This document shows, one piece after another, positions 1-32,010 of a stretch of DNA of 64,000 bases (position 1 is the stretch's first letter; each line of letters starts with the position of its first letter). This DNA is from Dioscorea cayenensis subsp. rotundata (Eukaryota; Streptophyta; Magnoliopsida; Dioscoreales; Dioscoreaceae): the NCBI RefSeq assembly GCF_009730915.1, contig NC_052481.1, positions 21,116,461 through 21,180,460 of the forward strand, in the 5' to 3' direction. The notes beneath the pieces are model-generated. The model searched no databases and was not told the origin of the DNA. It saw nothing but the letters and a program-made list of their open reading frames with translations. Both the position numbers and the translations under genes were made by a program.

Positions 1-387
1 AGCAAAGCCATTTTCATCACCACTATGTTTATTTTTTTCTTGCTGCAGGGTCCTATTTTGGTAGCCAACAACACCCATGCATGTGTGCATCAAATTTTAT
101 TTTCTGGGTTTAGATGGAGGGATTCATTCTGTTAAGAGGGCTTGGTTTTGGTTCTGTGGTTAGCTTTTTGCTTGTTTCAATTAAATTGTTTATTTTTTTG
201 AAAAAGAAGACTTTTGCTTATTTCATTTTATTATTTTTTTTTTTTTTAAAGAAGCCTTTTCTATGATTCCAAAGTTGTGCTTTTGGATTCATAAAATTGG
301 CTTCTATTGAGATTGGCTACAATATGACTTGCCTGGATGTGTAATTAATTGATCACTTATTATAAACATGATTCACATACAAATTTG
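1..387. other. AT-rich non-coding DNA upstream of APO fragment
   Basis: No coding exon can be supported here. It contains T-rich tracts and a pyrimidine-rich stretch ending in cag near 49 that could be a splice acceptor. Because a piece of an APO coding exon lies immediately downstream, this may be intron of a gene that starts left of the window, or simply unrelated DNA. The similarity to the right-hand APO gene stops at about 388. Confidence 0.35.
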
Positions 388-562
388 CTTGCTATGTGTG
401 CAAGCAGGTGTGCAGATACCTGATGCTTACAGACCAATGATGCGGATCGACATTGTGGTTCCAGAAGGGTTTTTACCCAGACTTATGCTTGATCTCTTGT
501 CTTATGCTCCTACCCATAACAATGATGATGATGTCAAAATAATTAAAACTTGTTATCCTTGA
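388..562 (+). pseudogene. APO protein 3'-end fragment (degenerate copy)
   Basis: About 23 codons, beginning at the Leu-Cys-Val-Gln-Ala-Gly stretch and running through IPDAYRPMMRIDIVVP, match the C-terminal part of the APO domain encoded at 63668-64000 on the other strand. APO proteins (Accumulation of Photosystem One; DUF794) are plant organellar RNA-binding proteins. After VVP the two copies diverge. The right copy has a short acidic end and a stop, while this copy lacks those codons and reads about 30 unrelated residues, which are really the homologue of the other gene's 3' non-coding DNA. Only the last portion of the domain is visible, and the zinc-ligand-like Cys/His part is absent here. 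I read it as a truncated duplicate. It could instead be the last exon of a gene extending left of the window. Confidence 0.6.
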
Positions 563-1005
563 CTAGTTGGCCAATTATGTGATTTTATTTCATATATCTT
601 GAATATGTATGGTTTAGTTTTATTATGTTCGATGCAAATCTAATGTGTATTATATTGATTTGATTCGACGCAAAAGCTTAAATTGATAGGATGAGAGATC
701 CGGGTTTGTATCTTTGCATCTTATTGTATTGATCTTGTAAAATCAATTGATCAAGTCTGGAAATTATGTTCAACACAAATCAAATATATATTATATGCAT
801 AGTGTACATGGTAGATTCAAATTTTTGTTTTATCAAACCAGCAACACATAGCTATGATTGGGGATCTTTGACCATAGTTTTAGAAAAATTCTCAATTACC
901 ATGACCTGACTTACTCAAAAAGGACATCAATGGAATCTGAGTTACTTAAAAAGGACACCAATACAAACACTGTGATACATCATTATGGTGGCTGCCGCTC
1001 TTTAT
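388..1005 (+). repeat. Left arm of an inverted duplication (APO 3' end plus glucanase 3'UTR)
   Basis: Read on the plus strand, this segment aligns collinearly with the minus strand of about 63752 down to 63120. Shared landmarks in order are: the APO codons; the phrase aaacttgttatccttga; gattttatttcat; a cgacgcaaa block; a stretch ending caaatatatatt; a gctatgattggggatcttt-like stretch; and the aaaggacaccaata...tgtgatacatcat stretch. The last one is the reverse complement of the glucanase 3'UTR at about 63138-63175. Identity looks like roughly 70-80 percent with small indels. The arm ends where the putative MITE begins. Confidence 0.8.
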
Positions 1006-1008
1006 TTA

Positions 1009-1385
1009 GGGTGTGTTTGTTTGGGTGTATTTGGTTTTACATGTAAAACCAAATACTTTACTTTATAAAATTCATTGTTTGTTTGAGTGTATTTAGCAAA
1101 TCCTCGATGTAATCGAGATTACATCACAATAGTTTTTGGATGTGTTTTGGCTTTTACGCCCCAAATTGGGCGTAAAACCAAATCCTGTGAGTTGAAAACC
1201 AATGTATATATATAAATACATGCATACATACACATACATATACACATACACATACATTTATATATTTATATAAACATATACAGGTACTTTTACACATATA
1301 CATATACATACTCATATACATATATGTAGATATACATATACTTATACATATATATATATATATATATATTCATATACGTATATAT

Positions 1386-1427
<42 letters not shown>

Positions 1428-1443
1428 TCATATACATATTTTT

Positions 1444-1523
<80 letters not shown>

Positions 1524-1965
1524 ATATATGTATACATATACTTATACATATATATATACTTATATATGTATATATATATACATATATATACATACATATA
1601 CATGTACTTATACCAATATATATTTATATACATATATACACACACATATACATGTACTTATACAAATATATATATATATATACTCATATACATATATGTA
1701 TATATACACATGTATATATATATGTATATTTATACATATATATACTCATATACATATATATATATACACACATATACACATGCATTTTCCAATTACAGAT
1801 TTACAAATCCTTTCAAACAAATATAAAATTTTATAATACAGTAATTTCAGTTACATCTAACCAAACACAAGATTTGATTGCACTGTATTTTGAAAACCAA
1901 GTATTTCTAATTACATTGTAATTAGAAATCCACTGCATTTAGAATTACATCCAACCATAGTATAT
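1009..1965. mobile_element. Putative MITE containing a long TA microsatellite
   Basis: The left end reads gggtgtgtttgtttgggtg. Near the right, ctaaccaaacaca (about 1857-1869) and a second tacatccaacc (about 1940) are rough reverse complements of it, as expected of terminal inverted repeats. Several short palindromes occur: ggttttacatgtaaaacc near 1031, a ttttacgcccc/gggcgtaaaa pair near 1153-1180, and a tttctaattac/gtaattagaaa pair near 1904-1929. There is no coding potential. The exact ends and target duplication are not resolved, so the class is uncertain. Confidence 0.35.
1200..1785. repeat. Very long TA / TACA-type microsatellite
   Basis: Nearly 600 bases consist of (TA)n runs mixed with tacata, catata and tatgta variants, the purest stretch being about 1450-1520. 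All open frames here encode only repetitive Tyr-Ile-Thr-Met-His strings and are not genes. The length probably varies between individuals. Confidence 0.95.
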
Positions 1966-12589: not shown

Positions 12590-12929
12590 AAATAAATGAA
12601 TAAATAAAACAAACAAAAGGCTAATGATAGAACCAATAAAATTTGATGCAAACCTGGGTGTTGTTCGCTTCCAGAACGCGACTGCAGCAAGGGACACAAA
12701 CGAAGTAGGGACCAAGATTGTTTTGCCTTCAACGCTAAGGACTTCAAAGATAACCTCATACACTTTTCACCCCAGTTATAAAAATTAAAGAAAACATTTA
12801 GATGCTAGAGCCTAGATGATTACTAAAATACTCATGATTCAAATTTAAACAGTAAAAATAGATATATGGAGAAGTTCTCATAAAAATAAAAAGCAGAGAA
12901 ACACAAATACAGCATTAGAAATGCATATA

Positions 12930-13245
12930 TATATATATATATATATAACTTTGTCTGACAACATATTGTCCATGCATCGGAAATAGGCATGCTCCAATTC
13001 TTCTTGAATGCTAATACACCCCAAACTGTCCAAAATCCAACTGCAAACCCTGACAAAGATCCAATGTACACCCATAGCATCCCATCATCATCCTTTCGAT
13101 CAAGTGACTCTTTTTTAATTATTCCACCATCTTTAGTGCAATTGTTACCGAGAGGCGCTCCACAAAGATGATTTCCAATGTAAATGGAGGAGTCATTGAA
13201 TGTACTGAACTGATGAGCAAATGGTATCCTTCCTGTCAAGTTGTT
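12930..13245 (-). pseudogene. LRR receptor-like protein, C-terminal scrap
   Basis: This encodes only the end of an RLP: a last repeat fragment (NNLTGRIPF), the IYIGNHLCGAPL cap region, an acidic linker, and the membrane segment (YIGSLSGFAVGFWTVWGVLAF). The cytoplasmic tail is then shifted out of frame around 12990-13010 and runs into a TA repeat. Upstream it is cut off abruptly by a LINE 3' fragment starting at about 13246. Comparison with the intact genes shows a point-mutated and frameshifted remnant. It cannot make a receptor. Confidence 0.85.
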
Positions 13246-13590
13246 CATACGGTGCTCCTGTGGTGTAATGCAGTGCCAGATTCCAAGAGAGCAAAATTGG
13301 AGGAGCCGCTAAAGAAGATCAAGCGGAGTCTTGAGTTCATATCCTCTAGGGACACGGAGTCTGTCCCCCCTGAGCCTCCTTCCTCCCCTGGCGTGGTGTA
13401 GTTTCTGAGCTTCTGTTTTCCCTGTGAGTGGTCTCTTGGGGGGTGGGGGTGCAGGGGTTTGTTTCCCCCCTGTTTTGTGTCCTGGTTGTAGTGGTTGCTT
13501 TCTCCACACTTCTTGTGGTTGGTCTAAACTAGTCCCGTATTTTTGTACTGCTTTTTCCTATTAATGACGTATGTTTTATCCACTTTTTTT
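13246..13590 (+). mobile_element. L1 LINE 3'-end fragment
   Basis: It encodes the C-terminus of ORF2 (AVPDSKRAKLEEPLKKIKRS), closely matching the LINE end at 51265-51330. The 3'UTR follows and ends atgttttatccactttttt plus adenines. It sits exactly at the break of the RLP scrap, so its insertion, or a rearrangement at it, removed the rest of that gene. Confidence 0.75.
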
Positions 13591-14211
13591 CAAAAACAAA
13601 TGTGTATACTAATCGCCTTTATATAATAAGAATAAATTACCCATTCAAGCAAGCTATCCCAGAGTTAAACTCAAAAGATGCAGTTTTATCACGCCAAAGG
13701 CATAACTTTGGAATCATAAAAACAAAAGGCTTCTTTTTCCCAAAAACTTAGCACACTAAACCTTCTTTCTCAAAAATAAATATATAAATAAATTGAAACA
13801 AACCACAGGCTAACAATAGAACCAAACCCAGGCCTTCTAAATAGAAGGAATAGGTCCATCTAAACTCAAATATAAAATTTGATGCAAACCTGGGTGTTGT
13901 TGGCTTCCAATACAGGACCTGGCAGCAAGAGACCCATAAGCAAAGCAAAGATGAAGATGGTTTTGCTTTAAACTCTCAGAATTCCAAAGATACCTCACAA
14001 ACTATTCACCCTAATTATATAAAAAAAAAACAGCTAGATGCAGGATTACGGATTACTAAAATATTTTCCATACATGATTCAAATATACACAATAGAGAAG
14101 CAAAGATACAGATAAGCTTTCATAAAAATAAAAAGTAAAGTGCATAAATTTTAATAAAACATTAAAAAAAAGTCTATGTGTATATATATATATATAATCT
14201 TTCTGAGTACT

Positions 14212-17200
14212 CTAATGATTTACCGACATCATCTTGATCCTCATCCTGGCAAAGCTGACTGCAATAAAAACATAGATCTTGTTGTATGTGTTGTCTACGC
14301 AATGGAAATAAGCATGCCTCCATTTCTTCTTGAATATTAAGACACCCCAAATAGTCCAGAATCCAACTGCAAACCCTGACAAAGATCCAATGTACACCCA
14401 TAGCATCTCATCATCTTCATCTTTTCCATCACTTAACTCTTCAGTAATTATTCCACCATCTTTAGTGCAATTGTCACTCAAAGGATATCCACAAAGATGG
14501 TTTCCAATGTAAATAGAGGAGTCATTGAATGTGTTGAACTGATTACCTGATGGTATCCTTCCTGACAAGTTGTTATATGATACATTGAAGTGTTCCAAGA
14601 ATGTCAAGTTTGATAAAGTTGCAGGTATACTTCCTGAAAGTTCATTTCTTGATAAGTCTAGTGATTGTAGCTGCTTCATTCTACCCAATTTGTTTGGAAT
14701 CTCACCCCCTAAAGTATTTCCAGAGAGGTTTAAACTCTGAAGAGCATACAAACTTGCTAGCTCTTCCGGGATGTTCCCTGACAACTCATTATTGGAAAGG
14801 TCAATGTAATTTAGATATCCAATATTGCGTTGATTATATTCATCATCTCTTCCTCTAAAACTTAAGAGCATGGTATCTTTATATTGGATCACAAGAAGTA
14901 TCCAACCAATAGTGTCTGGGAGCATTTGCATGGCAGTCAAGTTGCTCAAACTCTTTGGAATAGGACCTGAGAGATTATTGCTTGACAAATCAAGTATTTG
15001 TAGATATTGGAGTTGAGAAAGTTCTTGTGGGATGTGATTAACAAAAGCATTCGACTTTAACATAAGAACCGTTAAATATGATAGCCGTTCTCCTATCCAT
15101 GCTGGTATGCTTCCAGTGAAATTGTTGTGCCTGAGATCAAGAGTGACCAATTGACTGCAGTTCTTTAGGGAATCAGGGAATTCACCGGATAATTTATTAT
15201 CGTTCAACAATAGAAAGTTTAGATTACTAAGATGAGATATTGAACCTGGAATAGGCCCGGATATATTGTTGTATGCCAAATTAATTTCTGATAGTGTAGA
15301 TGAATCCGACCAGCAATCAAGGAGCTCACCTGATAAATGGTTTTTAGAGAAATCAATGCTTCCAATGTCTTTAATCTGACACAACCATTCAGGAACGCTG
15401 CCATTTAATTTGTTCATGGAAATTGAGATGCGAAGAAAATTAGAAAAAAATGTGTTATTTAGTATAATTGGGATAGGACCTGAAAAAGAATTATTAGAAA
15501 GATCTATGTAAGAAATGATGGGGCTTTTGATGTGGAAATTTGGTAAATTACCTGAAAAAGAGTTATTAGAAAGATCTATGGAAGAAAAGGTGGGGCTCTT
15601 CATGTGGAGATTTGGTAACGGACCTGAAAACAAATTAGAAGAAAGATCAAGGATTTCCATGTGAGTGAAAGTTAAGAATTTGGGTATCATCCCTTGAATT
15701 TGATTAAAAGAGAGGCCTAAATAAATAAGGTTGCGAGTAGTCAAGTTCCACAACCAGTCAGGCACTGTGCTTGAGATTCTATTTTGGGACATATCAAGTG
15801 TCTTCAACATGTGTTGTGTCTGAAGCCACGTTGGGAATTCCGGACCAACTAAGCAAGACCTGATTCTTAACTGATTGAGAAGGAAAGGAGGAACCCAGTT
15901 AGCACTCACATTGAAAACCGGTGAGTTACTAGACATATCAAGTGTTTTTAAATTCCCAAGTTGAGTGAAGTGTTCTTCAGCTATAGCACCACTCAGCTGA
16001 TTATAAGAAAGATCCAAATGTACCAGCTGTGCAAGGTTTCCAAACTCCTTTGGTAATGTTCCTGTTAGTTGATTATCATTAAGCAATAATTCCTCCAAAA
16101 AAGAAAGTGATGCTAGGGATGAAGGAACAGAGCCGGAGAATGAGTTGCGTGAGAGATCAAGAAGCTTGAGATTCTTGATTTCTCCAATCCAGTCTGGTAT
16201 ATCTCCTTTAAGTTCAGTGGAACTTAAGTGCAAATGAGTGAGACTATTCTTAAGACAGCCAGAAAACCCACCTTCAAGTTCAACCAGTCTCTTGTTGATA
16301 CTCAAGCTTGTCAAGTCCAGAGTTTGCAAGCTGCAAAGACTGCCCATGCTTTCAGGTATGCTTATGCTTATCTCACTGGGTTGACTCTTATAATAATTAG
16401 GACCAATAAATATACTTGTCATGTACATTATGGGAGAAGGTACCGTGATAGTGGGGTGATAAAGTTCATTTTGACTGAGGTCTAGAGATTGTAGGCTCTT
16501 GATGTTGAACAACCAGGAAATCCCCGAGAAATTGATATGGTTGTAAGAGAGGTCAAGAACAGACAGAGATGAGAAATTGAGATGAGGAATGGAATGTGGA
16601 AGCTTTTCTAACTTACAATTGGACAGGTGCAGCTCATTTATGGAAGGAAGCTTGTTGAGAGCTAGGAACAGGCTAGTTGACATGTTGCCCAAGTTGACAA
16701 AACTCATATCCAAGTGTTGCAATGAAGTGAGATTAGAAAGCCATTGATAATCATGCCCGATATTATCAAAATAATTGACTCTGAGGTCTAGATATTGAAG
16801 GCTCTTTAGGTTGAACTGGAAGGAAGGCACTGAAAAATTGATGTAGTTTTCAGATAGATCAAGAATGGAGAGAGACGAGAAGTTGAGATGGGGAATGAAA
16901 AGAGGAATGCTTTCAAGCCCACATTGAGACAAACGTATCTCCTTTATAGAAGGAAGCTTGTTCAGGGCTAGAAACAAGCAACTTGATGAGTTACTCCTAA
17001 AGGTGACACCACTCACAACAAGGTGTTGCAGTGAAGAAAGATGAGAAAGCCATTGATGAGCTGGATCATCAACATAAACTCCACCATAATTGTGTGAGAG
17101 GTCAAGAGTGTGCAAACTGGAGAGATTTCCAAAACCAGCAGGAATGGATCCTTGAAATCCAGAATAAGAGAGATTGAGGTACCTCAACTCCTTGAACTGA

Positions 17201-17634
17201 CTGATGAATGATGGAATACTTGTTCCATCGAAGAAGTTGCAACTCAAGTCAAGATAATTCAAATGTTGAAGTTGAAGCAAAGATGGAGAGATCTCACCTC
17301 CCAGCTGCAAGTAATTCGAGTCATCCCAGTAATAAGACTCGTATGAATTCGGATCCGGACCCTTGAGTTCCAGTGCAAGAATGTTGCCAGTGAGGTTGTC
17401 ACAATGGACTCCTTCCCATGAGCAGCAGTCTTGTCCAATCACCCAAGATGACAGCTTGTTGGAAGGATCTTGGATGTGTTTCTTGAAATCAAGAAGGGCC
17501 ATTCTCTCACTCTCTATGCAATTGGCAGGATATTTAGAAATGGGAACAAGAACTGCTGCATCATTGCAATGCAAAGCATGCCCAAATAGCAGCAGCAGCA
17601 ACAGCAGCTGCAATACACTTAGAAGGACAGACAT
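14212..17634 (-). CDS. LRR receptor-like protein (RLP, EIX/Cf-type), 1140 aa, intact
   Basis: A single uninterrupted frame encodes a complete receptor-like protein. Residues 1-26 form a Leu-rich signal peptide. Residues about 38-82 are the LRRNT_2 cap, with the paired-cysteine motif QDCCSWEGVHC. A long array of extracellular 24-residue LRRs (LxxLDLSxNxxSGxIP) follows, interrupted near the C-terminus by the usual non-LRR island (around TMLLSFRGRDDEYNQ). Then come the last four repeats, the YIGNHLCGYPL cap, an acidic linker (GKDEDDEM), and a transmembrane helix at about 1079-1101. The cytoplasmic tail is about 39 residues, contains YVFI, which fits a YxxPhi endocytosis signal, and has no kinase. 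Such RLPs (tomato EIX2, Cf and Ve1 families) sit in the plasma membrane and signal through SOBIR1/BAK1-type partners; the ligand here is unknown. A block of about 100 residues near the N-terminus is internally duplicated, and a short FSGxLPN repeat is doubled near residue 690. It is intronless, as is usual for the family. Lengths of 900-1150 are normal. Confidence 0.93.
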   Translation of the reverse strand: MSVLLSVLQLLLLLLLFGHALHCNDAAVLVPISKYPANCIESERMALLDFKKHIQDPSNKLSSWVIGQDCCSWEGVHCDNLTGNILALELKGPDPNSYESYYWDDSNYLQLGGEISPSLLQLQHLNYLDLSCNFFDGTSIPSFISQFKELRYLNLSYSGFQGSIPAGFGNLSSLHTLDLSHNYGGVYVDDPAHQWLSHLSSLQHLVVSGVTFRSNSSSCLFLALNKLPSIKEIRLSQCGLESIPLFIPHLNFSSLSILDLSENYINFSVPSFQFNLKSLQYLDLRVNYFDNIGHDYQWLSNLTSLQHLDMSFVNLGNMSTSLFLALNKLPSINELHLSNCKLEKLPHSIPHLNFSSLSVLDLSYNHINFSGISWLFNIKSLQSLDLSQNELYHPTITVPSPIMYMTSIFIGPNYYKSQPSEISISIPESMGSLCSLQTLDLTSLSINKRLVELEGGFSGCLKNSLTHLHLSSTELKGDIPDWIGEIKNLKLLDLSRNSFSGSVPSSLASLSFLEELLLNDNQLTGTLPKEFGNLAQLVHLDLSYNQLSGAIAEEHFTQLGNLKTLDMSSNSPVFNVSANWVPPFLLNQLRIRSCLVGPEFPTWLQTQHMLKTLDMSQNRISSTVPDWLWNLTTRNLIYLGLSFNQIQGMIPKFLTFTHMEILDLSSNLFSGPLPNLHMKSPTFSSIDLSNNSFSGNLPNFHIKSPIISYIDLSNNSFSGPIPIILNNTFFSNFLRISISMNKLNGSVPEWLCQIKDIGSIDFSKNHLSGELLDCWSDSSTLSEINLAYNNISGPIPGSISHLSNLNFLLLNDNKLSGEFPDSLKNCSQLVTLDLRHNNFTGSIPAWIGERLSYLTVLMLKSNAFVNHIPQELSQLQYLQILDLSSNNLSGPIPKSLSNLTAMQMLPDTIGWILLVIQYKDTMLLSFRGRDDEYNQRNIGYLNYIDLSNNELSGNIPEELASLYALQSLNLSGNTLGGEIPNKLGRMKQLQSLDLSRNELSGSIPATLSNLTFLEHFNVSYNNLSGRIPSGNQFNTFNDSSIYIGNHLCGYPLSDNCTKDGGIITEELSDGKDEDDEMLWVYIGSLSGFAVGFWTIWGVLIFKKKWRHAYFHCVDNTYNKIYVFIAVSFARMRIKMMSVNH

Positions 17635-17719
17635 TTCTAGTTAGGGAGATATTATTTGTGTATTTTCTTTTTTTTGCTGAGGAGCACTTTTGTTGGGATA
17701 AGTAGTTGCTTCCTTTCTT

Positions 17720-17740
17720 TATATATATATATATATATAT
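17720..17740 (-). promoter_or_regulatory. Candidate TATA box of the 1140-aa RLP gene
   Basis: On the minus strand the (TA) run reads into tatatataaag, about 85-105 bases before the ATG at 17634. That is a reasonable position for a core promoter with a 5' leader of 55-75 bases. It is a sequence match only. A LINE fragment starts directly upstream of it. Confidence 0.35.
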
Positions 17741-17741
17741 G

Positions 17742-18178
17742 TTATGATCTATCGATCAAGGTCTGCAGCACCTGCTCACTCTTTAATGGTTAAAATTGCT
17801 AATATGCTACTTTCCTGGTTTTCAGCGACCGATGTTAACCAACAGCAGTCTTTGGCTGTGGCTACTCGGAAAAATCAAGTCACTCAATCAACTCTCATCA
17901 ATGAGGGAATCCAACATTTCGGCGATTCGGATCCCTAATCTTTGCTCTAGAGTAGAGTTCTTCACCCTGTCACTCTGTTGACCTGCACTCTGCATTGGTG
18001 CTTTCGTCTTCATAGTGCTTTTATCTTCTCGTTCTTTGCTTTTCCTTGTTATGTATCTTAGAAGATCTTATACCTCACCTCTGGTGAGAGTTTCTGTACT
18101 TCTACTGTATTTTTTCGCAATGTTTTATTTTCAATAAATTTGTGGTTTATCTACTTTTATCAAAAAAAAAAAAAAAAG
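17742..18178 (+). mobile_element. L1 LINE 3'-end fragment in the RLP promoter
   Basis: It encodes the last part of ORF2 (a MLLSWFSA-like segment, as at 48705-48730). The 3'UTR follows and ends aataaatttgtggtttatct plus a run of 15 adenines. It is about 435 bp, and severe 5' truncation is typical of this family. It lies about 110 bases upstream of the RLP start codon. Confidence 0.8.
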
Positions 18179-18530
18179 TCTTCGGGGCACAAATTTTTCC
18201 ACAATGAGGAAAGAGATATGCCCAGAAAAAAGAGGCATGCCATGTACCACCTTGAATCAAGGTCAAATTTGGACATATTTGAGTTAGAATTGACTTAAAT
18301 TAGATCAAAATTATTTTTTAATAAGAATTAAATGAAATTACTGCACTTAACTAAGTTATACACAGTGACTTTTTCATATTTCACAAAAGAATAGACTTTT
18401 CCTAGTTTACACTCTTCATTTATTTTTATCCTGACCTCAATCTCATCTGACCATGTCAATTCTAACGTGAAAAGGAGAGATGGTTTTTTACTTGGTTTTC
18501 AATTAAAAAGAATAATTCATGCACCTATGA

Positions 18531-20125
18531 CTTATCCAGACTGTCCGAGCGAGACTCCCCACTTGGAAATCTACTTATCTCTCCCTTGGTGGTCGTCTAA
18601 CCCTTATCAATTCTGTCTTATCCACAATACCTGTTTACTGGATGACAGTCTTCAAACTACCTGCTTGGGTAATTAAGGAAATTGATAAGACTCGTAGGGA
18701 CTTCCTTTGGAAAGGACCAGACTTGAACTCTAAAGGAGCTAGACTGGTCGCTTGGAATCGAATCTGTCGGCCTCGTCTCTTGGGAGGTTGGGGAATTCTC
18801 AATCTTGCCGAATTCAACAAAGCTCTCCTTGGAAAATGGTGGTGGAAGTTTATTTCTAACCCTAACTCGTGTTGGGCTAAAATCATCAGATCCAACTACT
18901 CCATCACTTTACCTGGAACTTTGTTTCACACTCCTCCTAGAAACAAATCCTTTTTTTGGGCCGGTGTCATCACTACCCTAATATCTTTTAGATCATGTAT
19001 TTCCAAAACTGTTAGAAATGGAAAGGATACTCTTCTTTGGCATGATCGATGGACGGGGGGACAAGTACTTAAGGATCTCTGGCAAACACTATTCAATGAC
19101 TGTTCCCAACCTTGGATTTCCCTTAGACAATTCTCGCTCCTTAGCAACTCTGCTGAAAGTTATTTTCATTCCGCAACACGTGATGATTTGTCTACTATCT
19201 TAAACTTAATTCCAGTTTGTTCTCATGATCAGGATGATTCCATTACTTGGACCTTGGAAAAGAATGGTATTTTCACTGTTAAATCATTCTATAATTTTTT
19301 AATTGATGGTGGAATGCGCAGTCCACTGTATTCTAAATTTTGGAAAACTCTTTGTCCAAGTAAAATTACTCTTTTTTGCTGGCTTGTTTGGGACAATAAA
19401 ATTCACACACTCACTAATCTCTTTAAGAAGGGATGTAACCCAAACGCCATCGAGATACTTGCACTCTTTGCCACAAGAATTTCGAAAGCGTGGATCATCT
19501 CTTTTTAGATCGTGTCTATTCTTCCCTGCTTTTTGGTCCTACTTCTCCAACACTCTTGATCTTCAATCTCTACCTCCCACAGTTTTCAAGCATCTGGACC
19601 TTATGGTTACCTTCATTACATTCAACCATTAGATTGTTGTGGGACTTACTCTCTAGAGCAATTATCCGGAATATTTGGGTCGGAGCGAACGACCGCATCT
19701 TTCAAAACACTCTGCATTACCTTTTTCCTAAAGTATTACTCAAAAATCATTAATATGTTGCTTGCTTGGATTTCTCTGACTTCTTTACCCCACCAAAGAA
19801 CCGAATGAAGCCTCAAGAAGATAAAAGCGCTCCCCTCGACTTTCGAGCGCAGACGGACCGCGAGATAACACCGGCAATCTTGACACTCCATTGATTCGGG
19901 GAGTAATCTACTCTTTCCCTGCACTCGGACCGTCCCCGTGACTCGAGACGGATCTCTTCGCTTTCCCAGCTGCGTTATTTGTTTACTTGTATTTTCTTTT
20001 CTGAGTTCTTCACCGCTGGTGAGAACTCTTTACTTTGTTTACCTTGTGAGTTGTACTTTTCGAAAGCTCGCTTTTTCTTTTTCAATAAAGTAGTGGTTTA
20101 TCCACTTTTTATCAAAAAAAGAAAA
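18531..20125 (+). mobile_element. L1 LINE, 5'-truncated, 3' half of ORF2
   Basis: It starts in the reverse-transcriptase C-terminal region (YLSLGGR-like near 18574, then KLPAWVIKEIDKTRRDFLWK at 18651). It continues with an open frame at 18642-19508 through GGWGILNLAEFNKALLGKWW and FTVKSFYNFLIDGG, then breaks. The 3'UTR ends gtggtttatccactttttat plus A-rich sequence. It is inserted in the first copy of module P. The closest relatives in the window are the minus-strand LINEs at 24709 and 45112. Confidence 0.85.
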
Positions 20126-20344
20126 AGAAAAAAAGCCAAGCAAAGGCCTAAAATGTATTTGGACCAATTGAGAATCTGAGATGGCTATGTTTTACCCCCA
20201 CAGTATTGTGAATTGTTAGTAATTTGAAAATCATAATTTTCCTTAAATTTCATGAATTATTCACTCGCATTTAAAAAAGTAAAATAAAACCATAATAATG
20301 GTTTATGGTGGAATGAGATTTAACCAATATATATATAATTCAAT

Positions 20345-20391
20345 TTCTATTTATGAATTGTGGTTTATCCACTTTTTCAAAAAAACAAAAA
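20345..20391 (+). mobile_element. 47-bp L1 LINE tail insertion
   Basis: Only about 34 bases of LINE 3' end (gaattgtggtttatccactt) plus an A-rich tail are present. The flanking repeat aatatatatataattcaatt occurs on both sides (20325-20344 and about 20392-20414). The paralogous module copy near 23550 lacks the insertion. It is one of the shortest inserts here. Confidence 0.75.
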
Positions 20392-20554
20392 AAATATATA
20401 TATATAATTCAATTAAAAAAGTTTTCCTTTCTACATATGTTTTAGTTTTCCTTTCATATATAAAATATGTTTTTTCCTCAACTATGAAAAATTGCTACCC
20501 TTAAATGAATTTACTTTATTCATTTTGATCCCATATATAAAAATAAAGTTAAAA

Positions 20555-20668
20555 AAACCAAAGCATAGCATGGTGGTTTCCTACCTAACTTGTGTTTGGA
20601 ATGTCTCGAGTTCGAAACCTCTCATTGGGATAAAAAGGTGCTTGTCGCTAATTTGTCAAAAAAAAAAA
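20555..20668 (+). mobile_element. tRNA-derived SINE
   Basis: It begins ccaaagcatagcatggtggt, with a tRNA-like head (A-box-like gcatggtggtttcc, B-box gagttcgaaacct). It ends ggtgcttgtcgctaatttgt plus a poly(A) run. The flanks show aaagttaaaa on both sides (20545-20554, 20669-20678). The head cannot fold as a functional tRNA with a clear anticodon arm, so it is a SINE and not a tRNA gene. Confidence 0.75.
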
Positions 20669-21274
20669 AAAGTTAAAATTTTAGTTTTGAATAATTTTAT
20701 TATTTAACGGAGAGTATTTCTTTTTATGAGTTTAAATTATAGAGGAGGGTTTTTTACGGGAAGAGATGCCAAACAACTTAACATTTTTTTTTTTAAATTT
20801 GTTTTAAAAAAAATTTAGACCAACTAAGAATTTTAGCCAATCTTTAATTTGAGAGAGTGATCTTAACATCCTCATAATAATTCCTCTCTTGACTTGTCAC
20901 TTGACTTGGAATAATATGCAATTGTACCTCATAATAATGGCTATAGTTTTCTTCCCTGTGAAATTTAGTTGCTACATAAATCTATGTCAAATTAATTGCA
21001 TATCAAAGAAATTTTGGGGATATGACTCCAAATCAATATACTTTTTCAAGCTCATGCTTGTCATCTCTCTCATGACAATATCAGTTTCACCTTTTATTCA
21101 GTTTTCAATTAAAGAGAATATTAGTTTATGGACACGTGGTTTTCTCATATTTCACAAAAGAATACATTTTTCCTTGCTTATGCTTCTCATCCCTTTTTGA
21201 TCTTGATCTCGATCTTATATGGCTACGCCAATTCTAACGTCAAAAAGAGAGATGTTTTTTTTTTATTTGTCTTT

Positions 21275-23272
21275 CTTTTTTTTTTTTGATAAAGTGGATA
21301 AACCACAATGCATTAATCAAAAAAAGCAAGTTCAAAACACAAAAACAAACAAATCATCCACTATAAGTGGAAACAAAAAGACACAAACAGGCAGGAAAAC
21401 AATAGTCCAACATGGACCGAAAGGACACACCGAGACATAGGGGGAGGAGAGAGGGACTCCTCCAAGACTCAGCACCATAGTGGACCACTAGCCAGAGGAC
21501 TCCTCGTGCCTATCGGGCTCCATCTCCTCGTGAGGGGGGCCTGGGAACTGGATGCAGCGCCGAACCGCAGCAATAGACTCCTCAAGCCTGTGCAAATCCC
21601 TAGCAGGGACCACTGGAATCCAAGAGATATACATATGACAAATTTTCAAAAACAAAGCATGCCAAGGAATAAAAACTGAGTTGAAAATACAGTTATTTCT
21701 AGCAAGCCAAATTTGCCACAAAAACACTCTAGCAATCAAAGAGCATGACAAAGTGAGCCGAGGGCTAAGCTCGCGGTACCAGTCATCCCAGAGGTCCGAG
21801 CAGGAAGAGGGAATACATGGGAAAGAAAAAATGCTAGCAAGACGATCCCATATATCCCTCGCCAAGGGGCACCTAAAAAACAAATGATCGATTGACTCAG
21901 TATCCGAGCAACAAAGGAGGCAGGTTGCAGTGGGCAGCTTGTTGCAACCACGGGCAAAAAGCGTGTCAAGCGTGAGGATTTTCCTTTCCCCAACCAACCA
22001 TGCAAAAGCAGCAATTTTTCGTGGGATGAAGCGTTTAAAGATCCTCGGGGTGATACTGCATCTCAGTCCCCTGTCGATAAGGAAATTGTAGAAAGACTTG
22101 ACAGTGAAAGAGCCATCAGCAGTAAGCTTCCAGACTTTGAGGTCAGGAAGATCCCCAGACGCAGAGCGGAAGCTAGTACTAAGCTCAGCCAAATAGGGAT
22201 CGTCTCCCAAAGAGCCTGTGGGGAGATCCAAGAGCATCTCCCAAACAGTCACAAAAGGGGAGATAGTCGAGTGGAAAGCTTCAGCCCAGCGGTATTTAGG
22301 GGCACAACCATCGTGCCAATTATCCAACCAAAAGAGTGTGGTGAGTCCATCCTTGACGTGGGAGCGAAGGCAGGCTTTGAAAACTTCCAACGACGGGAGA
22401 AGGCCTTGCCAAAAGAAAGAGCTCCGGCGATGGCGGGGTACCCAAAGGTTCCACCTCGGATGTTGTTGGAAATAATTGAATAGAATGGGCGCCGACCCAC
22501 ACCAGGAATCAACCTTTAAGATTTTCCACCACCATTTCCCGAGAAGAGCACCATTGAACTCGGCAAGATTGATGATCCCCCAGCCCCCTTGATTCCTAGG
22601 GAGACACAGTCTAAGCCAGTTGACCAGACGCATTTAGGCCTATCCAGATCAGGACCCTTCCACAAGAAATCTCTTCTTAGGCCGTCAATACGTTTGACCA
22701 CCCACTTAGGGAGACGAAAGATCGACATCCAGTAAGTGGGTAACGCCGACAAAACGGAATTAATGAGAATGAGCCTGCCCCCCAGTGACAGGTAATTGGC
22801 CTTCCAAGAGGTGAGCCTATCCTTGACTTTGTGGATGAGAACCTCCCAGTCCTGATATCGCGGCCTTCTACCAGCAATCGGTACCCCCAGATATGTGATC
22901 GGGAGGGTGCTAGCAGCACAATTAAGCGTGCCCAGGGAAGATTGGCTGGGCAGGGATCCAAAACCGGTAGAGAACAAGCAAGTTTTGTGGAGGTTAATCG
23001 CCAAACCAGATATATCTTTGTAGATAAATAGGATTAACTTAATAATCTTAAGGTCCTCGGTCCCTCCTGCTGATAAAATGATCAGATCATCTGCGTATTG
23101 CAGATGGCAAACATTTCCAAAATTACCAAGCGGGACCCCATACAGAATGTGTGAAGTAAGAGCATGGTTGAACATAGAGCTGAGCACGTCAGCCACAAGA
23201 ACAAAGAGCAGCAGCGACAGGGGGTCCCCTTGACGCAAACCACGCTGGTATCTGACATATCCTTCAGGAGAG
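21275..23272 (-). mobile_element. L1 LINE, 5'-truncated, ORF2 almost intact
   Basis: Read on the minus strand, it starts in reverse transcriptase (RYQRGLRQGDPLSLLLFVL, then the catalytic QYADDLIIL near 23090). It continues through LPITYLGVPIAGRRPRYQDW and RRDFLWKGPDLDRPKC. A single frame change near 22630 joins it to a 381-codon frame. That frame carries GGWGIINLAEFNGALLGKWW, FTVKSFYNFLIDRG and the zinc-knuckle-like CLLCCSDTESIDHLFFRC. The 3' end is at 21275-21300 (gtggataaaccac on the plus strand). It is inserted in the second copy of module P, with loss of about 80 bp of that module. The few lesions suggest a relatively young insertion. Confidence 0.88.
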
Positions 23273-24078
23273 CCATAAGCCATGCAAAGGCCTGAAATAT
23301 TTTTGGACCAATTGAGATGGTTATGTTTTGACCTCAGAGAACTGTGAATTGTTAGTGATTTGAATTACATTAAATTATGACACTCAATTAGGACATAAGC
23401 CAAGTCAAATGATTACAATTTGAGTAAAATAGTGTTTGATAATAAGTAATAATGTCATAATTTTTACTTAAATTTCATGATTTATTCACTCTCATAAAAA
23501 AAAATAAAATAAAACAATGATACTAACTATGGTGGAATAAGATTAATCAATACATATAAAAAAAAAAAATTCAATTTTAAAAAAAGTTTTGCTTCCTACA
23601 TATGTTTTAGTTTTCCTTACATATATAAAATATGGTTCGGTTCCTCAACAATGAAAAATTGCTAGTCTTTAAATGGACTTTGATTTTTCATTTTGAGCCA
23701 TAAATAAAAAAATATAGATCAACCAAGAATTTTAGTCGATCTTTGATTTGAGAGAGTGGTCTTAACATCCAACCGTCCCTCATAATGATTCCTCTCTTGA
23801 CTTGACTAGGAATAGTATCCAATTGTACCTCATAATAATGACAATTTTTTTCTTCCTTGTGGAATTAGTTGCTACATAAATCTATGCCAAATTAATTGCC
23901 TATCAAAGAAAATTTGGGGGTATGACTCCAAATCAATAGACTTTTCCAAGCTCATGCTTGCCATCTCTCTCACGACCATATCAATTCCACCGTCAACAGG
24001 AGCAACAGTGTTTTATTCAACTTTCAATCAGAGATGGATATGTGGCTTTTTCATATTTCACAATAGAATAAATTTTTT

Positions 24079-24329
24079 GCCAACGACCTTCGGGTCTATT
24101 GGTACATGGATCACCGATAGAGCTCTCACCAAGTGGTGAGAGTTCGATTCTCGGCTGAGGGTACATTTCTGGGAGTTGTGAATAGTGGTTGTGTACGAAT
24201 GGTTCCAGCGTCCACGTGAGCACGGCCCCGTCCTCACTTGTTCCACCGAGGCTTGTGCACGTCCCTGGGGTCTCTAGTGGGTTCGCCCTGCTCCTCTTCC
24301 AAAAAAAAATAATAATAAATAAATAAATA
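24079..24329 (+). mobile_element. tRNA-derived SINE (family 2)
   Basis: The head reads gccaacgaccttcgggtcta with a B-box gagttcgattctc. A body with ggctgagggtacatttctgg follows, then a GC-rich 3' part and an A/T-rich tail. The target duplication aataaattttt flanks it (24067-24077 and 24330-24340). The module copy near 21155-21175 shows the empty site. A second member lies at 55495-55735. Confidence 0.8.
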
Positions 24330-24708
24330 AATAAATTTTTCCTAGCTTATGCTTGTCATCTCTTTTTTGATCTTGATCTCGTTCTTATACGAGTATGCCA
24401 ATTCTAATGTCATAAAGAGAGATGGTTTTTTATTTGTCTTTCAATTAAAAGGAGTAATTCATGCATAAATGGCTTTTCATATATCACAAAAGAAATATCA
24501 AAGAAAAAAAACCATGCAAGAACCTGAAATGTATTTGCACCAATTGAGATGGTTATATTTTGACCTCTGAGTATTGTGAATTGTTAGTGATTTGAATTAT
24601 ATCAAATTATTACACTCAATTAGGACATAACCCAAGTCAAATGATTAAAATTTGAGTAAATAGTGTTTGCTAACAAGTAATGATGTCATAATTTTTACTT
24701 AAATATTA

Positions 24709-27253
24709 TTTTTATTTTTTTTTGAATAAAGTGGATAAACCACAAATTTATTGAAAAAGAGCAAACTGAAAACAACAAAGTACAAAAGAAAGTACAACAA
24801 GCATAGGAGCTAAGCAGAAGTCTGTTATCCTCACCAGTGATGAGAATAACAGAATACAAGGAAAACAAAAAGAAAGATAAAAGAGGAGCAATCTGAAGCC
24901 GGCGAAGTCAACCATAAGGAGGCACAGGCCGACGAGAGAAGGAGGAAGCGGACTACTCCCACAGATCGATCGGCGCCCGATCACCAGTCGCAGCAGGAGG
25001 ATCCGGGGCCGAGGAAGTTTAAGGAACGCTTGATCTTCGAGAACCCTCCGAGTCAATCAAAGAGTGGGAGTCGAATCTGCAGTAATCCAGAAAGAATCAT
25101 ATTAGCCAGTATTATAAATTGTAACAGAAGTTTGTGAATATTTTTGGTTAAAAATACGGTTGTTGCGTTCCAGCCAGATATTCCAGAAGATGGCTCGGGA
25201 ACAGAGGTCCCAGAATATTTCGAGGGAAGAATTAATGAGGGAATCAATTGGTCCAAATGTTATATCTTGAGGAGGGTAGAATTTCGATGTCGAATAAACA
25301 TTTGAAGAATGACCAAATTCGCTCAGAGTAGAATCTGATGTAAGAAAAAGGTGGTCCACCTGATTCGATGTTATTATGGCAAAAGGGTACAAGTGTCGCT
25401 AGCGGAAGGGTTGCATCCTTTTTGAATAGGTTCTCAAGAGTTAGAATTTTTGTTATCCCGGGCAAGCCAACAGAATAAGGTGATTTTGCTAGGAGACTTA
25501 GTTTTCCAGAAATTGGAATAAAGTTGATTAAGAAGTCCTCCATCAATTAGAAAAATTGTAAAAAAAGATTTGATCGTGAAAGTTCCATTCTTTTCTAATG
25601 ACCCGGAAGTAAGAGTCATCATTATCATTGGAACAATCCGGTAAAGAATTTAGAAGTCTGATGATATCATTTGTAGTGGCTGATCTAAAGAGATTACCCT
25701 GGGAGTTGATAATAAGAATAAATTGTTTTAAGGTAATCCAAGGGTAAGGACAGTCCAGAAAGAGAGAATCATAAACGTTTCTAGGTGACCTGCCCTCTAA
25801 CCATCTATCAAACCAGAATAGAGTTTTTTCACCATTGCCAATTGATTTGGTTAGGCAGGAACGGAATGAATGAAGTATGGTATTAATTCCCGCCCAAAAG
25901 AACGATTTATTTCTGGGGGGTTGTGAGAAAAGAAAGGTTGGGGAGTCACTGTAAAAATAATTGGCTTTAATGATCATGGACCAGCATGATTCTGGTGCAG
26001 TAATGAATTTCCACCACCATTTGCCAAGTAAGGCTTTATTGAATTCCTGAAGATTAAGGATGCCCCAGCCACCCATGCTTCTGGGTCGACAAATTCTGTT
26101 CCAAGCAATTAATCTTAACCCCTTAGATCCCAGGTCCGGGCCTTTCCAAAGAAAGTCTCTCCTGATTTTGTCAATATCATGTATGACCCAGGTAGGAAGT
26201 TTGAAAACTGACATCCAATAAACTGGGATGGAAGATAACACAGAGTTGATAAGAGTTAAGCGACCCCCCAAAGAGAGGTAAATTGCTTTCCATTGAGTGA
26301 GCCGAGACCGAACAGAATCAATCAGCATCGCCCAGTCAGCTCTTCTAGGGCGTTTACCAGAGAGGGGTACCCCTAGGTAAGTGATGGGAAGACAATCTCT
26401 ATTGCAATTAAGAATTCTTGCAGAGGAGGGATTCGGTTGAAAACCGAAAAAGGTGGAGTAAAGACAGCTTTTTGAGAAGTTGATAGAGAGACCGGAGCAG
26501 CCTTCAAATAGGTAAAGAATTAATTTAACAATTTTAAGGTCTTCATGTCCACCCCCCGAGAAATGATAAGATCATCAGCATATTGTAAATGGCAAATGCT
26601 GTTAGAATGGTCAAGTTGTACCCCAATCAGAACTTTGGAATGAATCGCGTGGTAGAACATTGCACTAAGGGTATCAGCCGCTAAGGCAAAAAGAAGAGGA
26701 GAGAGAGGATCCCCTTGTCTTAGGCCTCTTTTGCAGCGAATGAAACCCTGAGTAGTACCATTAATGAGAATTTGAGTTTTGGCAGATTTGAGAATAGTGT
26801 GTATCCATGAGATCCAACGATTACCAAAGCCTCTAGCTTCTAGAATCTCAAGTAGAAAATTCCAGTCCAAGGAGTCAAAGGCTTTAGCGAAATCGACTTT
26901 AAGAGCGTGGCAGAGAATTTTTCCTTTTTGAAGATTGAAAATCACTTCCTGAGCAGAGAATAATATTATCAGCGATACATCTACCCTTAATGAATCCGGA
27001 TTGAGAATAATCCACTAATAAGCCAACCTTTTGGCTTAATCTAGATGCAAGGATTTTTGGAAATGATTTTTGCAAGTGGAATTGATAAAGGCTGATGGGT
27101 CCGAATTCGAAAACTTCAGTTGGGGATTTGGTTTTGGCTATAAGAGCAATGTGAACCCAGTTGAGGCGTTCAAAGTTTAAAGTGCCATCATAAAAGTCAC
27201 TGCAGATTTGAAATAGATCTCTCTGAATAAAACTCCAATGTTTTTGAAAGAGA
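24709..27253 (-). mobile_element. L1 LINE, 5'-truncated, RT and C-terminal region
   Basis: On the minus strand the reverse transcriptase shows SGFIKGRCIADN (about 26990), DFAKAFDSLDWNFLLEI (about 26890), RGLRQGDPLSPLLFALA (about 26720) and QYADDLII (about 26580). A 261-codon frame follows (YLSLGGRLTLINSVLS, RRDFLWKGPDLGSKG, GGWGILNLQEFNKALLGKWW), then broken C-terminal pieces. The 3' tail lies at 24709-24745 (gtggataaaccac). The direct repeat ttaaatatta (24699-24708 and 27254-27263) is the target duplication, and the empty site is visible in the module copy near 23470. Confidence 0.9.
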
Positions 27254-27708
27254 TTAAATATTAAAAAAAATAACAATGAATATGATGGAATGAGATTAAC
27301 CAATACATATTACAAAAAAAAAATCAATTAAAAAAAGTTTTTCTTCCTGCATATGCCTTAGTTTTCCTTTCATATGGTTTGCTTCCTCAACAATGGAAAA
27401 TTATTAATCCTTACATGGACTTTGATTATTCATTTTGAGCCAATAAATAAAACAAAAAGTTGAAATTATTGTTTGGAATAATTTTATTATTTAATGGAGA
27501 GTATTTCAATTATAATTTTTTTAAAAAAAAAATATATAGAGGAGAGTTTTCTTACAAAGAAGAGATGCCGAACAACTTGGCATCCTAATTTTTTTTCTTT
27601 ATTTTCTTTATTAAAACAAATATAGACTAAATATGGATTCAAACAAACCATTAATTAGAGAGTGATCTTAACATCCAACCGTCCCTCATAATAATTCCTC
27701 TCTTGACT

Positions 27709-28115
27709 TGACCCGGAATCATAATTACTTGTCTTTTCTTGTAGTCTTTTTCCATTATATATTTCTTGATTTGAAATAGTGATCTTAACATCCAACTATC
27801 CCTCATAATAATTCCTCTTGACTTGACCTCAAATCACAATTGCTTGTCTTTTCTTGTGGTCTTTCTCCATTATATATTTCGTGTATTGTTTGTCTTTTCT
27901 TGTGGTCTTTCTCCATTATATATTTCGTGTATTGTGACCCGGAATCATAATTACTTGTCTTTTCTTGTAGTCTTTTTCCATTATATATTTCTTGATTTGA
28001 AATAGTGATCTTAACATCCAACTATCCCTCATAATAATTCCTCTTGACTTGACCTCAAATCACAATTGCTTGTCTTTTCTTGTGGTCTTTCTCCATTATA
28101 TATTTCGTGTATTGT
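27709..28115. repeat. 226-bp tandem repeat with a nested 46-bp repeat
   Basis: The segment beginning gacccggaatcataattact at 27709 restarts at 27935. Within the first unit, a 46-bp stretch beginning ttgtcttttcttgtggtctt is itself present twice (about 27843-27888 and 27889-27934). The repeat derives from the end of module P. The overlapping open frames are repetitive and not genes. Confidence 0.85.
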
Positions 28116-28529
28116 TCCTCAGTAATAAAAGTTTCTTGCTTCGAATATTTCACTACTATCACAGATAATAAAACCTCTTTTTTTTTATATATATATATAT
28201 AACAAAAATTCATTGGCTTTTTTTTTTTTTGCAATGAGTTACATTCATTGACCTGATTTTTCAATTTTCCATTGAAGAGTGTCATTGTTGTTGCCTGGTC
28301 CAACACATGGGAATATCTGAGAGATAGATACTAACCCTAATGAGCTTCAGACCCTAATGAGCTTCAGTACAGTAGCTACGCAACAATACAGGCCTAATGA
28401 ACTTTTTATAGGCCAAGAACTAGAGGACGAAGTAGATTGACATGGACTGGTAATCAAAAAACAGAATTTAACTGCAAAATAGCTAAACTGATGACAATAA
28501 CTGAAGTCAAAATTATAAAGTAATCACAA
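28116..28529. other. Non-coding DNA between module P and block A
   Basis: AT-rich sequence with T runs at 28170 and 28220, and a short direct repeat (cctaatgagcttcag, twice near 28340-28365). Nothing gene-like is seen on either strand. Confidence 0.5.
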
Positions 28530-28689
28530 TATAAGAACCACAATTAGTAGATCCTAGCTAGTATGATATATGCTTGAATACTCCATGGCACAAATCTAAT
28601 TTACCAAATAGCATAAAGAGACAACATGCAAATGTTTTGGCAAAGGAATTAAAAAACAAAATCTTGGACAACTAATGGGTTTATATTTA

Positions 28690-28835
28690 AATAAGTAAAA
28701 CTACTAGCTATTCAACTATCTACGTCTATTCCAAAATTTGAATTCTTAAACAAAGTATTCCAAAATTCGAATTCTTATACTTACTAGCTATTCAACTGTC
28801 TATGTCTTTTCCAAAATTCAAATTCTTAAACAAGT
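28690..28835. repeat. Local ~95-bp tandem duplication in block A
   Basis: The string tactagctattcaact followed by a tcc-aaaattcgaattctta-type stretch occurs twice (about 28700 and 28790), with a third partial copy of the second half between them. The other block A copies (35870, 43990) have one copy. Confidence 0.6.
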
Positions 28836-30278
28836 AAGGCCCTCCTGGATAACTGATAGATGCATCACTGCAAACAAATGGAAGGTAGCAATCAAGTTCA
28901 AATCAGCATTTAGTTAGAGAAATTGAGTAAGCAGACAAAGGAATTTCTAGTTCAATCATAAGCAAGCAAATAATATTGACGAACAATTCAAAAAGAAGGA
29001 GAAAGAAAGAAGAAAAAGTTACTAGCTCAGAGGGCCACCTGATTGACGTAAAAAAGTCACTGCAATTAGAAGTTTGAATAACATGTTTATTCACATATAA
29101 GACAATCCCTTTTCAAAAACTTAGTAGTTTGCCTTCTAATCAAGTTATTAGAAATGAAAAAAAAAATCCAATCGGCTAAATTACAACAAGACTAGAGGGA
29201 ACTATGCACGTGAATATACCTCTTCTGCAGGAAGTGAGAAAAGAATAAATTTGCATTTCAAGCATTTAGAATCAAAACTTGAAACTTATTATGGGCAGAT
29301 CAGGTCAATTATCAAGTGTGGGGAATTCAAATTTGTTGCTGCAGAAGAGAATGATGCAATGTTTAACAAAGCAAAGTGGATTTTTGATAAAGAAATTTAT
29401 AAAATAATCAATAAAGAATCATTTCCCATAACAAGGAAGATGAACTCAAGGCAAGCAGGAGGTATACTGTGGATCATTGATGATTTCATCTACATGACCC
29501 ATTCAGTCTAATGCCTAAATAAAAACAAAATACAAACAAGTATCTTTCTCAGCTCACACATATGCAAATTAGAAAGACAAATTTATCCCATGGTAAAAGT
29601 AAAACTGAACTATTACCAAAGGAAATCACCCATTCAGTCCAAAATAGCTAAAATTTGGTTGATTATAATCGAGAATAGAGTATGTACTCAAGCACCATCT
29701 AGTGTAATTATTTTAGTAGAATAGAAGCAAGTTGATAACGATGGAACCTTTATTCTAGACTGGACAAGAGAGGCGCGCTTAGCATAATAACAGAATTTAT
29801 CAATAAATTCCTGTGAAGAAAACGATAGGCAAAATGTTACCTTCAAAGCACATGTATTATATAAACACAAGCTAAAATAATCATGAGCATCACTTCAAAA
29901 CTAGTGTATCCCCAAAATCAAATCTTTAATTGTCACAAGGGAAAATATTATAGGAATACTTGTAAAGTAGTCCATCTTTCATTGTCCTCTAATAAGGGTA
30001 GAAACTATACCATGTCTTCCCACAAGAGATGTGAACATATAGCAAAGCAAAGCTAACACCAAACCAACCCATGTTTGCCAAACCTCTCCGAAATTTTGCC
30101 CCAAAGCTACATATCCAAACAACCAAAACGAAATTAAACCTCCTCCAATTCTTGGATTTCTATAACCCTAACACAAAATTCAAAGAAAGCAAAGAAAAAA
30201 AATTAAATTTTCAGTATGAAACCAAAACAAAAATCCTGAAAATCAAGAGTCAAGATCCAAGATGGCCAGGGATATTAC

Positions 30279-30485
30279 CAATCGGCCTTCTTCGTAGTCC
30301 TCTACGCAGATGGAATCAACAAGGAGGTCATCGACTGCCTCGAAAGCGCCATTGCCATCGACGCCGAAGTCGAAGTCCTCGTCAGCTAGGGAAGTTGAAA
30401 ATGTAGTTGGATGATGGGCCTTATCAACCTCCACCATCTGACGGGCCAGCACCTCGTGCACCACCGAGCTCGCAACCTCCGCCAT
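30279..30485 (-). pseudogene. First-exon-like fragment, best-preserved copy
   Basis: From the ATG at 30485 the minus strand reads MAEVASSVVHEVLARQMVEV, then a Ser/Thr-rich segment. An acidic segment follows, containing ADEDFDFGVDGNGAFEAVDD and later CVEDYEEG, and it ends at a possible splice donor (gattg|gtaata). This is the only one of four copies whose frame is open throughout. GC content is higher than the surroundings, as expected of a coding exon. The acidic VDDLLVD-type stretch resembles plant GATA-factor N-termini, which is a weak similarity, and no following exon is recognisable within 2 kb. I class it as a duplicated exon fragment; expression data could overturn that. Confidence 0.45.
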
Positions 30486-30622
30486 TAATGCGCCTCTTCT
30501 CCGGCTCCTCCATTGCCGCGATAGCTCAACGAGGCTTTATTAGAAGCTCGAGGAGGTGCGGTTGGCTTTATGAACCGGGTTTGGCTGGCAAACGGGCGCA
30601 ATTGGGTTCGAACCTAATTGGA

Positions 30623-32010
30623 ACAAGCTACTTGAGATGCTGCTCAAGTTGATATTAGTCATATCCAAGTGTTGTAATGAAGTGAGATTAGAAAGCCATT
30701 GATAATCATGCTCGATGATATCAAAATAATTGTAACTGATGTCTAGATATTGAAGGGTTTTTAGGTTGACCAGGAAGGAAGGCACTGAAAAATCGATGGA
30801 GTTTCCATACAGATCAAGGATGGAGAGAGATGAGAGGTTGAGATGGGGAATGAAAAGAGGAATGCTATCAAGCCCACAACCAGACAAACGTATCTCCTTT
30901 ATGGAAGGAAGCTTGTTCAGGGCTAGAAACAAGCTGCTTGATGAGTTACTGCCAAAGATGACACCACTCACAACAAGGTGTTGCAGTGAAGAAAGATGAG
31001 AAAGCCATTGATGCGCAGGATCATCAACATAAACTCCATCATTATATGAGAGGTCAAGAGTGTGCAAACCGGAGAGATTTCCAAAATTAGCAGGAATTAG
31101 TCCACCAAAGTGAGAATTAGAGAGATTGAGGTACCTCAACTCCTCGAACTAACTGATGAATGATGGAATACTTGTTCCATTGAAGAAGTTGCAACTCAAG
31201 TCAAGATGATTCAAATGTTGAAGTTGAAGCAAAGATGGAGAGATCTCACCTCTCAGCTGCGAGTAATGCAAGTAAAAAGACTCGTCTAACCACGGATACG
31301 GACCCCTGAGTTGCAGTCCAACAATGTTGCCGGTGAGTAGGGATGGCAATGGGACGGGGCGGGGGCGGGGCATGCCTCTACCATCCCCACCCCGCATGGT
31401 AATAAGCGGGCCACCGGCGGAGGCGGGGCCGGGGCGGGCACTAGCAGGGCACTATTCTCGTCCCGTTTTTTGTTTTCCGTTAATCTCCCGCCTTGCTTAT
31501 AGTTATAAATAAGTATTTAAAATTCTTAAAAACATTTATAAAATAGATTTATTTTATAAAACACATATTTTTAAAAACAACTCATAAGAAATTTATTAAA
31601 AATTAAAAGAAAAATTCATTTACCCTATACATTATATAATATTTATAATAAATTAAATTATTATCGGGACGGGGCTGGGCAAGCAAATACCAAACCTGCC
31701 CCACCCCGCTCAAAATCGGGGCGGATCGGAGCGGGAACTTCGGGGCGGATCGGGTTTTGCCATCCCTACCAGTGAGGTTGTCACAATGGACTCCTTCCCG
31801 TGAGCAGCAGTCTTGTCCAATCACCCAAGATGACAGCTTGTTGTTTGGATCTTTTATGTGCTTCTTGAAGTCAAGAAGGGCCATTCTCTCTCTCTCTCTA
31901 TGCAAGCAGTGCATGATGATCTACTAATGAGTTCTACTAATACTAGTATTACGAGTAGTGGCAGCATACGAATGGCACCGCTCATTGCTGCTTGTGACGG
32001 TTTAGCGAAG
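30623..32010 (-). pseudogene. LRR receptor-like protein, N-terminal part, broken
   Basis: It corresponds to the first third of the intact RLPs: signal peptide region (31977 down), LRRNT cap, and LRRs up to the second NLTSLQHLDM block. Lesions: a short indel in the repeated ag of the signal/cap junction near 31895-31905 shifts the frame. The cap tryptophan is changed (QDCCSREGVHC). A 431-bp hAT element splits the gene at 31338-31768. An in-frame stop interrupts the sequence after FIS near 31150. The gene ends abruptly at about 30623, fused to block A. More than half of the ectodomain, the membrane helix and the tail are missing. The upstream flank is of the same type as that of the RLP at 37.8-40.6 kb. 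Confidence 0.9.
31338..31768. mobile_element. Non-autonomous hAT element (431 bp) inside an RLP pseudogene
   Basis: Terminal inverted repeats start tagggatggcaa and end ttgccatcccta, followed inward by GC-rich gggcggggc-type stretches on both ends and an AT-rich middle. The 8-bp target duplication is ccggtgag (31330-31337) and ccagtgag (31769-31776), with one mismatch. Both features are diagnostic of the hAT superfamily. There is no transposase. Removing it restores the continuity of the RLP cap-to-LRR junction seen in the paralogues. Confidence 0.92.

Follow-up and report, generated by a model that had tools for sequence, protein, structure and literature searches.

At the two ends of the DNA analysed here (the window: 64,000 nucleotides, C11:21116461-21180460), the junction between an APO gene and a glucanase gene is present twice, on opposite strands: within an intact-looking locus at the right end, and as a fragment of about 594 bp at the left. 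On balance, the fragment is probably a small, old, inverted ectopic copy of the junction, made by illegitimate recombination or by a switch of template during replication. It has the appearance of a scar left when the gene cluster was reshuffled, not of an arm of a large mirror-image duplication. A preliminary description of this DNA had interpreted the two ends as arms of an inverted segmental duplication that enclose a cluster of RLP genes. Part of that interpretation stands, for the left end does hold part of the APO/glucanase junction, copied long ago and in inverted orientation; the two enclosing arms are not supported. The features concerned are collected in Table 1.

Table 1. Features of the window that bear on the left fragment and its origin (positions are those of the window)
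Feature	Position	Strand	Basis and remarks
RLP 3' flank	1..390	+	Belongs to the RLP just left of the window; the same sequence lies behind other RLPs
Junction of RLP 3' flank and APO exon	391..392	.	2-bp overlap (GC), read by eye in side-by-side sequences
Fragment copy: last APO codons, APO-glucanase intergenic DNA, to 80 bp past the glucanase stop	391..984	+	blastn, alignment, tblastx
Transposon-like and TA-rich DNA beside the fragment	1008..1960	.	Limits and kind judged by eye
Five RLP genes or gene fragments between the copies	12928..55101	-	At 12.9, 14.2, 30.7, ~37.8 and 52.5 kb; tblastn
Glucanase gene (GH17), intact-looking	61447..63054	+	Start and stop by eye; Pfam Glyco_hydro_17, E 9e-80, main exon
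Right copy, part of the intact-looking APO/glucanase locus	63134..63770	-	blastn, alignment
APO gene, 3' end	63668..64000	-	Runs to about C11:21181416, past the window; PF05634 matches C11:21180197-21181416

The reverse match between the ends is real. By blastn it comprises three collinear blocks: window 391-722 (+) pairs with 63770-63427 (-) (71%, E 1e-36), 751-871 (+) with 63427-63297 (-) (71%), and 937-984 (+) with 63181-63134 (-) (87.5%). The reverse-strand diagonal on which the preliminary description depended is therefore present, its limits (391-984 and 63134-63770) slightly shifted from those first proposed (388-1005 and 63752-63120), and the two opposite-strand copies keep the same internal order. 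The local alignment score of left against right copy is 162; the same-strand control gives 28, and 500 dinucleotide shuffles give a mean of 22.5 and a maximum of 33. What was copied is, as first described, a convergent APO/glucanase junction: APO codons, intergenic DNA and sequence past the glucanase stop, in order. The APO part of the left copy amounts to 25 codons (392-466), and 23 of the 25 residues (92%) are as in the right copy. At the other end the match stops 80 bp past the stop codon of the glucanase gene (placed by eye at 63052-63054), leaving on the left only the distal tip of that gene; transposon-like DNA follows, judged by eye to begin about 24 bp past the end of the fragment. Both points agree with the preliminary description. 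When window 388-1005 was searched against the genome (584 Mb, 2249 contigs; only the best candidates scored), 19 matches were listed; one is the left copy itself, and the right copy and a third place (C11:20990788-20991422) account for two each. Among these best candidates, 14 short matches elsewhere in the genome all fall within window 616-725, at 74-85% identity. Since this stretch aligns in both copies, it is probably an old repeat that predates the copying.

At its left limit the fragment is cut within an APO coding exon and abuts the 3' flank of an RLP gene. This gene (the Left RLP; L028:6781-9777) is an intact-looking frame, open for 998 codons from stop to stop, at C11:21113241-21116237 (+), and ends 223 bases before the window. 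The flank of the 14.2-kb RLP matches that of the Left RLP (72%) over a stretch that starts about 0.2 kb ahead of the window and stops at position 390, and the flanks of the RLPs in L012, in L027 and at window 8.6 kb match it in parts; past the 390 junction point, these last three share another sequence among themselves. A search of window 900-7000, past the fragment, for the rest of the RLP 3' flank in + orientation found nothing.

The fragment is also isolated within the DNA searched. A tblastx comparison of the 22.6-kb right region with 17 of the 24 fetched pieces, the loci themselves (L015-L018, L029-L031 and window 61301-64000) being set aside, gave only 391 to about 800 and repeat-like matches, and a tblastn search of 284 kb with the main exon of the glucanase gene gave only the two intact loci. 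No remnants of a locus-size arm were seen beyond the 0.6-kb core in either search, and a large decayed arm was rejected for the pieces covered. These results bear directly on the proposal that the whole APO-glucanase locus was duplicated in inverted orientation, that growth of the RLP cluster then separated the two loci, and that the left one decayed. Order and orientation are kept across the 594 bp, and the divergence is old, as this proposal would have it. But the left copy starts inside an exon, against RLP DNA, and neither gene could be traced further in the 17 of 24 pieces tested. Gene order differs, too: the left side reads RLP, APO tail, glucanase tip, and the right side, reversed, reads APO, glucanase and, after 6 kb, RLP, so that the one is not the reverse of the other. 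Permuted order, cut exon and missing remnants together argue against segmental-duplication arms, as do RLPs outside the pair, and we consider duplication of the whole locus quite unlikely.

Nor do the two copies enclose the RLP cluster, as had been claimed, for RLP sequences lie on both sides of the fragment. In addition to the Left RLP, an RLP fragment occurs 12 kb to the left on the same contig (21104439-21104886, -), and further left tblastn finds more matches on other contigs, some of them maybe from the other haplotype. Altogether, the window contig carries seven RLP units. Six are on the (-) strand (five between the copies and one outside), and the Left RLP alone is on the (+). Pfam finds LRRNT_2 and LRR in the frames at 14.2, 37.9 and 52.5 kb; the assignment as RLPs rests on this pair being found in four of four frames scanned with no kinase family listed, and on a transmembrane stretch judged by eye. 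The best solved relative is 7drb, a membrane-localized LRR receptor-like protein (also 7w3x; E 5e-150). Like other RLP gene clusters, this one has LRRNT_2 and LRRs but no kinase family, and comprises multiple copies, fragments and a mosaic of the kind left by gene conversion (discussed below); the genes themselves show nothing unusual. Much younger than the RLP copies are direct repeats of ~95% between window 41807-44939 and 49433-50257 and C11:21089456-21092597 and 21101155-21101965, which flank the left fragment on both sides. The first (window 41807-44939) has further nearby relatives and may be a repeat element.

When window 388-1005 and both near-identical APO loci were aligned globally, three ways, 558 sites could be compared, at 74.9% identity and, between fragment and right copy, a K2P distance of 0.308; some two dozen of the alignment columns lie beyond the matching limits. 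The preliminary description had judged from base-level divergence that the copying is not recent, and this is borne out. This distance is close to that between the 3' flanks of the Left RLP and the 14.2-kb RLP (0.302) and to the dS among four RLPs (0.28-0.39, six pairs), which suggests that the fragment is roughly as old as the RLP duplications, the measures being not strictly comparable. It would be far older than the third copy, for the two near-identical APO loci differ by a K2P of only 0.012 in the fragment stretch and 0.033 in the glucanase exon. Divergence of 25% from both of these loci argues against an assembly chimera of recent sequence as the source of the left fragment, and that reading was rejected.

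The right APO/glucanase locus looks intact on both sides, with coding DNA for ACBP, Hsp70 and thioredoxin beyond the APO gene. Some APO matches (PF05634) of the right copy have in-frame stops, but the best match is free of them; at the third copy, two have such stops. Another APO-family gene lies about 67 kb right of the window, at C11:21247754-21249543 (+). The third copy, C11:20989031-20991653, is 188 kb away and 97.6% identical to window 61381-64000. It is a direct copy, and this counted against the inverted-arms interpretation. Collinearity continues, with some interruptions, over C11:20979494-21018567 versus 21167004-21207061. This 39-kb direct copy takes in RLP, glucanase, APO, ACBP, Hsp70 and thioredoxin coding DNA, and is mostly 90-98% identical. 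Pieces longer than 500 total 37,768 aligned columns, with 1313 mismatches (3.5%) and 679 gap openings, 417 of them single-base. Piece identities are 90-98% except in the last 6.9 kb (78-82%), which holds 629 of the 1313 mismatches and is largely widespread repeat; a genome search with the end of the third-copy stretch (copy A) matched such a repeat. Copy counts exclude a genome search with the 10 kb right flank, whose listing lacked the query's own site.

Contig ends point to what this third locus is. The end of its contig falls within 1 bp of that of the window contig, and at the latter's other end the contig C11:20944995-20962552, reversed, meets it within 11 bp. For seven further contig ends, no such end-to-end partner turned up in the fetched DNA. 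Since two pairs of ends coincide so closely, the third locus is probably the other haplotype, left unpurged in the assembly; alternatively, it would be a true recent duplication whose contigs were broken at the same repeats. The reversed contig (L011-L013) matches 21088207-21093616 and then 21121222-21129419 (window 4762-12962), skipping about 27.6 kb that hold the Left RLP and the fragment. As this contig is presumed to represent the other haplotype, both may be absent there. The skipped part lies between direct repeats of about 1.3 kb (90-91%). The region is repeat-rich, and the order and orientation of contigs other than the window's may be wrong.

The RLP flank that breaks at the junction and does not resume in window 900-7000 invites comparison with chromosomal inversions at staggered breaks. 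The ~62-kb interior would have been flipped, the segment from the APO exon to past the glucanase duplicated in inverted orientation at the two ends, and the left copy later eroded to ~594 bp, while the right one stayed intact. A known mark of such events is single-copy DNA duplicated in inverted orientation at either end (PMC3355041); this occurs here, if the third copy is, as is probable, the other haplotype. The five RLP units between the copies are (-), moreover, and the RLP just outside is (+). But the next unit to the left is (-) again, and with six of seven units in that orientation the single (+) gene is more simply taken to be the inverted item. Loss of the whole left glucanase copy would be needed besides. 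An inversion would explain the interrupted flank, then, but RLP orientations do not favour it, and we regard it as unlikely. Drosophila mojavensis provides a precedent in the staggered-break scars of inversions 2h and 2q. According to PMC3355041, single-copy DNA is found inverted at two places, one copy being intact and the other reduced in 2h, which resembles the situation here; the differences are that neighbouring RLP orientations are mixed in the window and that the inversion is only a candidate. An inversion should also have put the other half of the broken RLP flank, reversed, at the right end; a reversed piece does occur at window 50257-49192, but it is for the most part 95% similar to the L027 unit and may be the 52.5-kb RLP's own flank. 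A staggered inversion limited to 391-984 is ruled out, as the right copy keeps both neighbours.

An ectopic copy accounts best for the junction within an exon against RLP flank, the lack of further gene traces in 17 of 24 pieces, the RLPs on both sides, and the intact look of the right locus. What calls for explanation is a copy, its inverted orientation, its sharp junction, its isolation in the DNA searched and its RLP-like divergence. For these we infer a repair event, set among the rearrangements that multiplied the RLPs. An end in the RLP 3' flank would have been joined to the last APO exon through the 2-bp overlap, which can also be due to chance; the copied stretch would have run to just short of the glucanase coding end; and transposons would have filled the region later. 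Against a simple insertion stands the missing remainder of the RLP flank on the far side (+ orientation, window 900-7000): either a more extensive loss took place as well, or the event was itself a breakpoint. Transposons may have replaced a flank that once resumed beyond the fragment, and the fragment's original right limit may have been removed, with transposon-like DNA starting so close by. Ectopic copies of gene fragments, and templated insertions at double-strand breaks, arise in plant genomes by illegitimate recombination. The left copy resembles templated insertions in being a short piece of unrelated genes, joined through an overlap of microhomology size and situated away from its donor. 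It differs from them in its age, in the target flank that does not resume past the insert in window 900-7000, and in having donor and target within one gene cluster region.

The permuted order might instead be the trace of a circle: a unit bounded by the APO tail and an RLP 3' flank would have closed on itself and re-entered the chromosome in reverse, which would yield the order RLP-APO-glucanase. Resemblances of the Left RLP are mixed in this regard. Its C-terminal 199 residues are closer to the 52.5-kb RLP, the one beside the glucanase (85.9%), than to the 14.2-kb RLP (79.9%), which speaks for a circle, but in its upstream DNA and its 3' flank it is like the 14.2-kb RLP and not the 52.5-kb one. 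Sequence comparison suggests that this mosaic may reflect gene conversion. Flank likeness thus lends no support to the permuted order as proof of a circle, and upstream of the Left RLP tblastn detected none of the glucanase coding sequence. We judge a circular intermediate very improbable. The same slender chance attaches to the wider proposal that the fragment is the scar of a circle holding an RLP and its APO/glucanase neighbour, that RLPs spread by such circles, and that the two haplotypes differ in presence and absence.

Capture of a gene fragment by a transposon of the Pack-MULE or Helitron kind is disfavoured, and has in our view scarcely any likelihood. Transposon-like DNA, identified by eye, does lie right after the fragment, but its other side is an RLP flank common to other RLPs, not a transposon end, and among the genome matches listed the two APO loci are the only other long copies. 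In the 900-2300 interval, 231 inverted repeats were found, and the 25 longest all lie within TA-rich DNA (1201-1785).

The left fragment is without evident function, although it could conceivably form part of a putative chimeric RLP 3' UTR. The outcome is mostly corrective: the mirror-image match between the two ends of the window marks a scar of 0.6 kb and no large inverted duplication. The fragment, an old mark that a single RLP copy bears, could help to order the events that built the cluster. The near-identical third copy warns that two haplotypes may have been placed end to end, which would inflate the number of copies counted for the RLP cluster and its neighbours.
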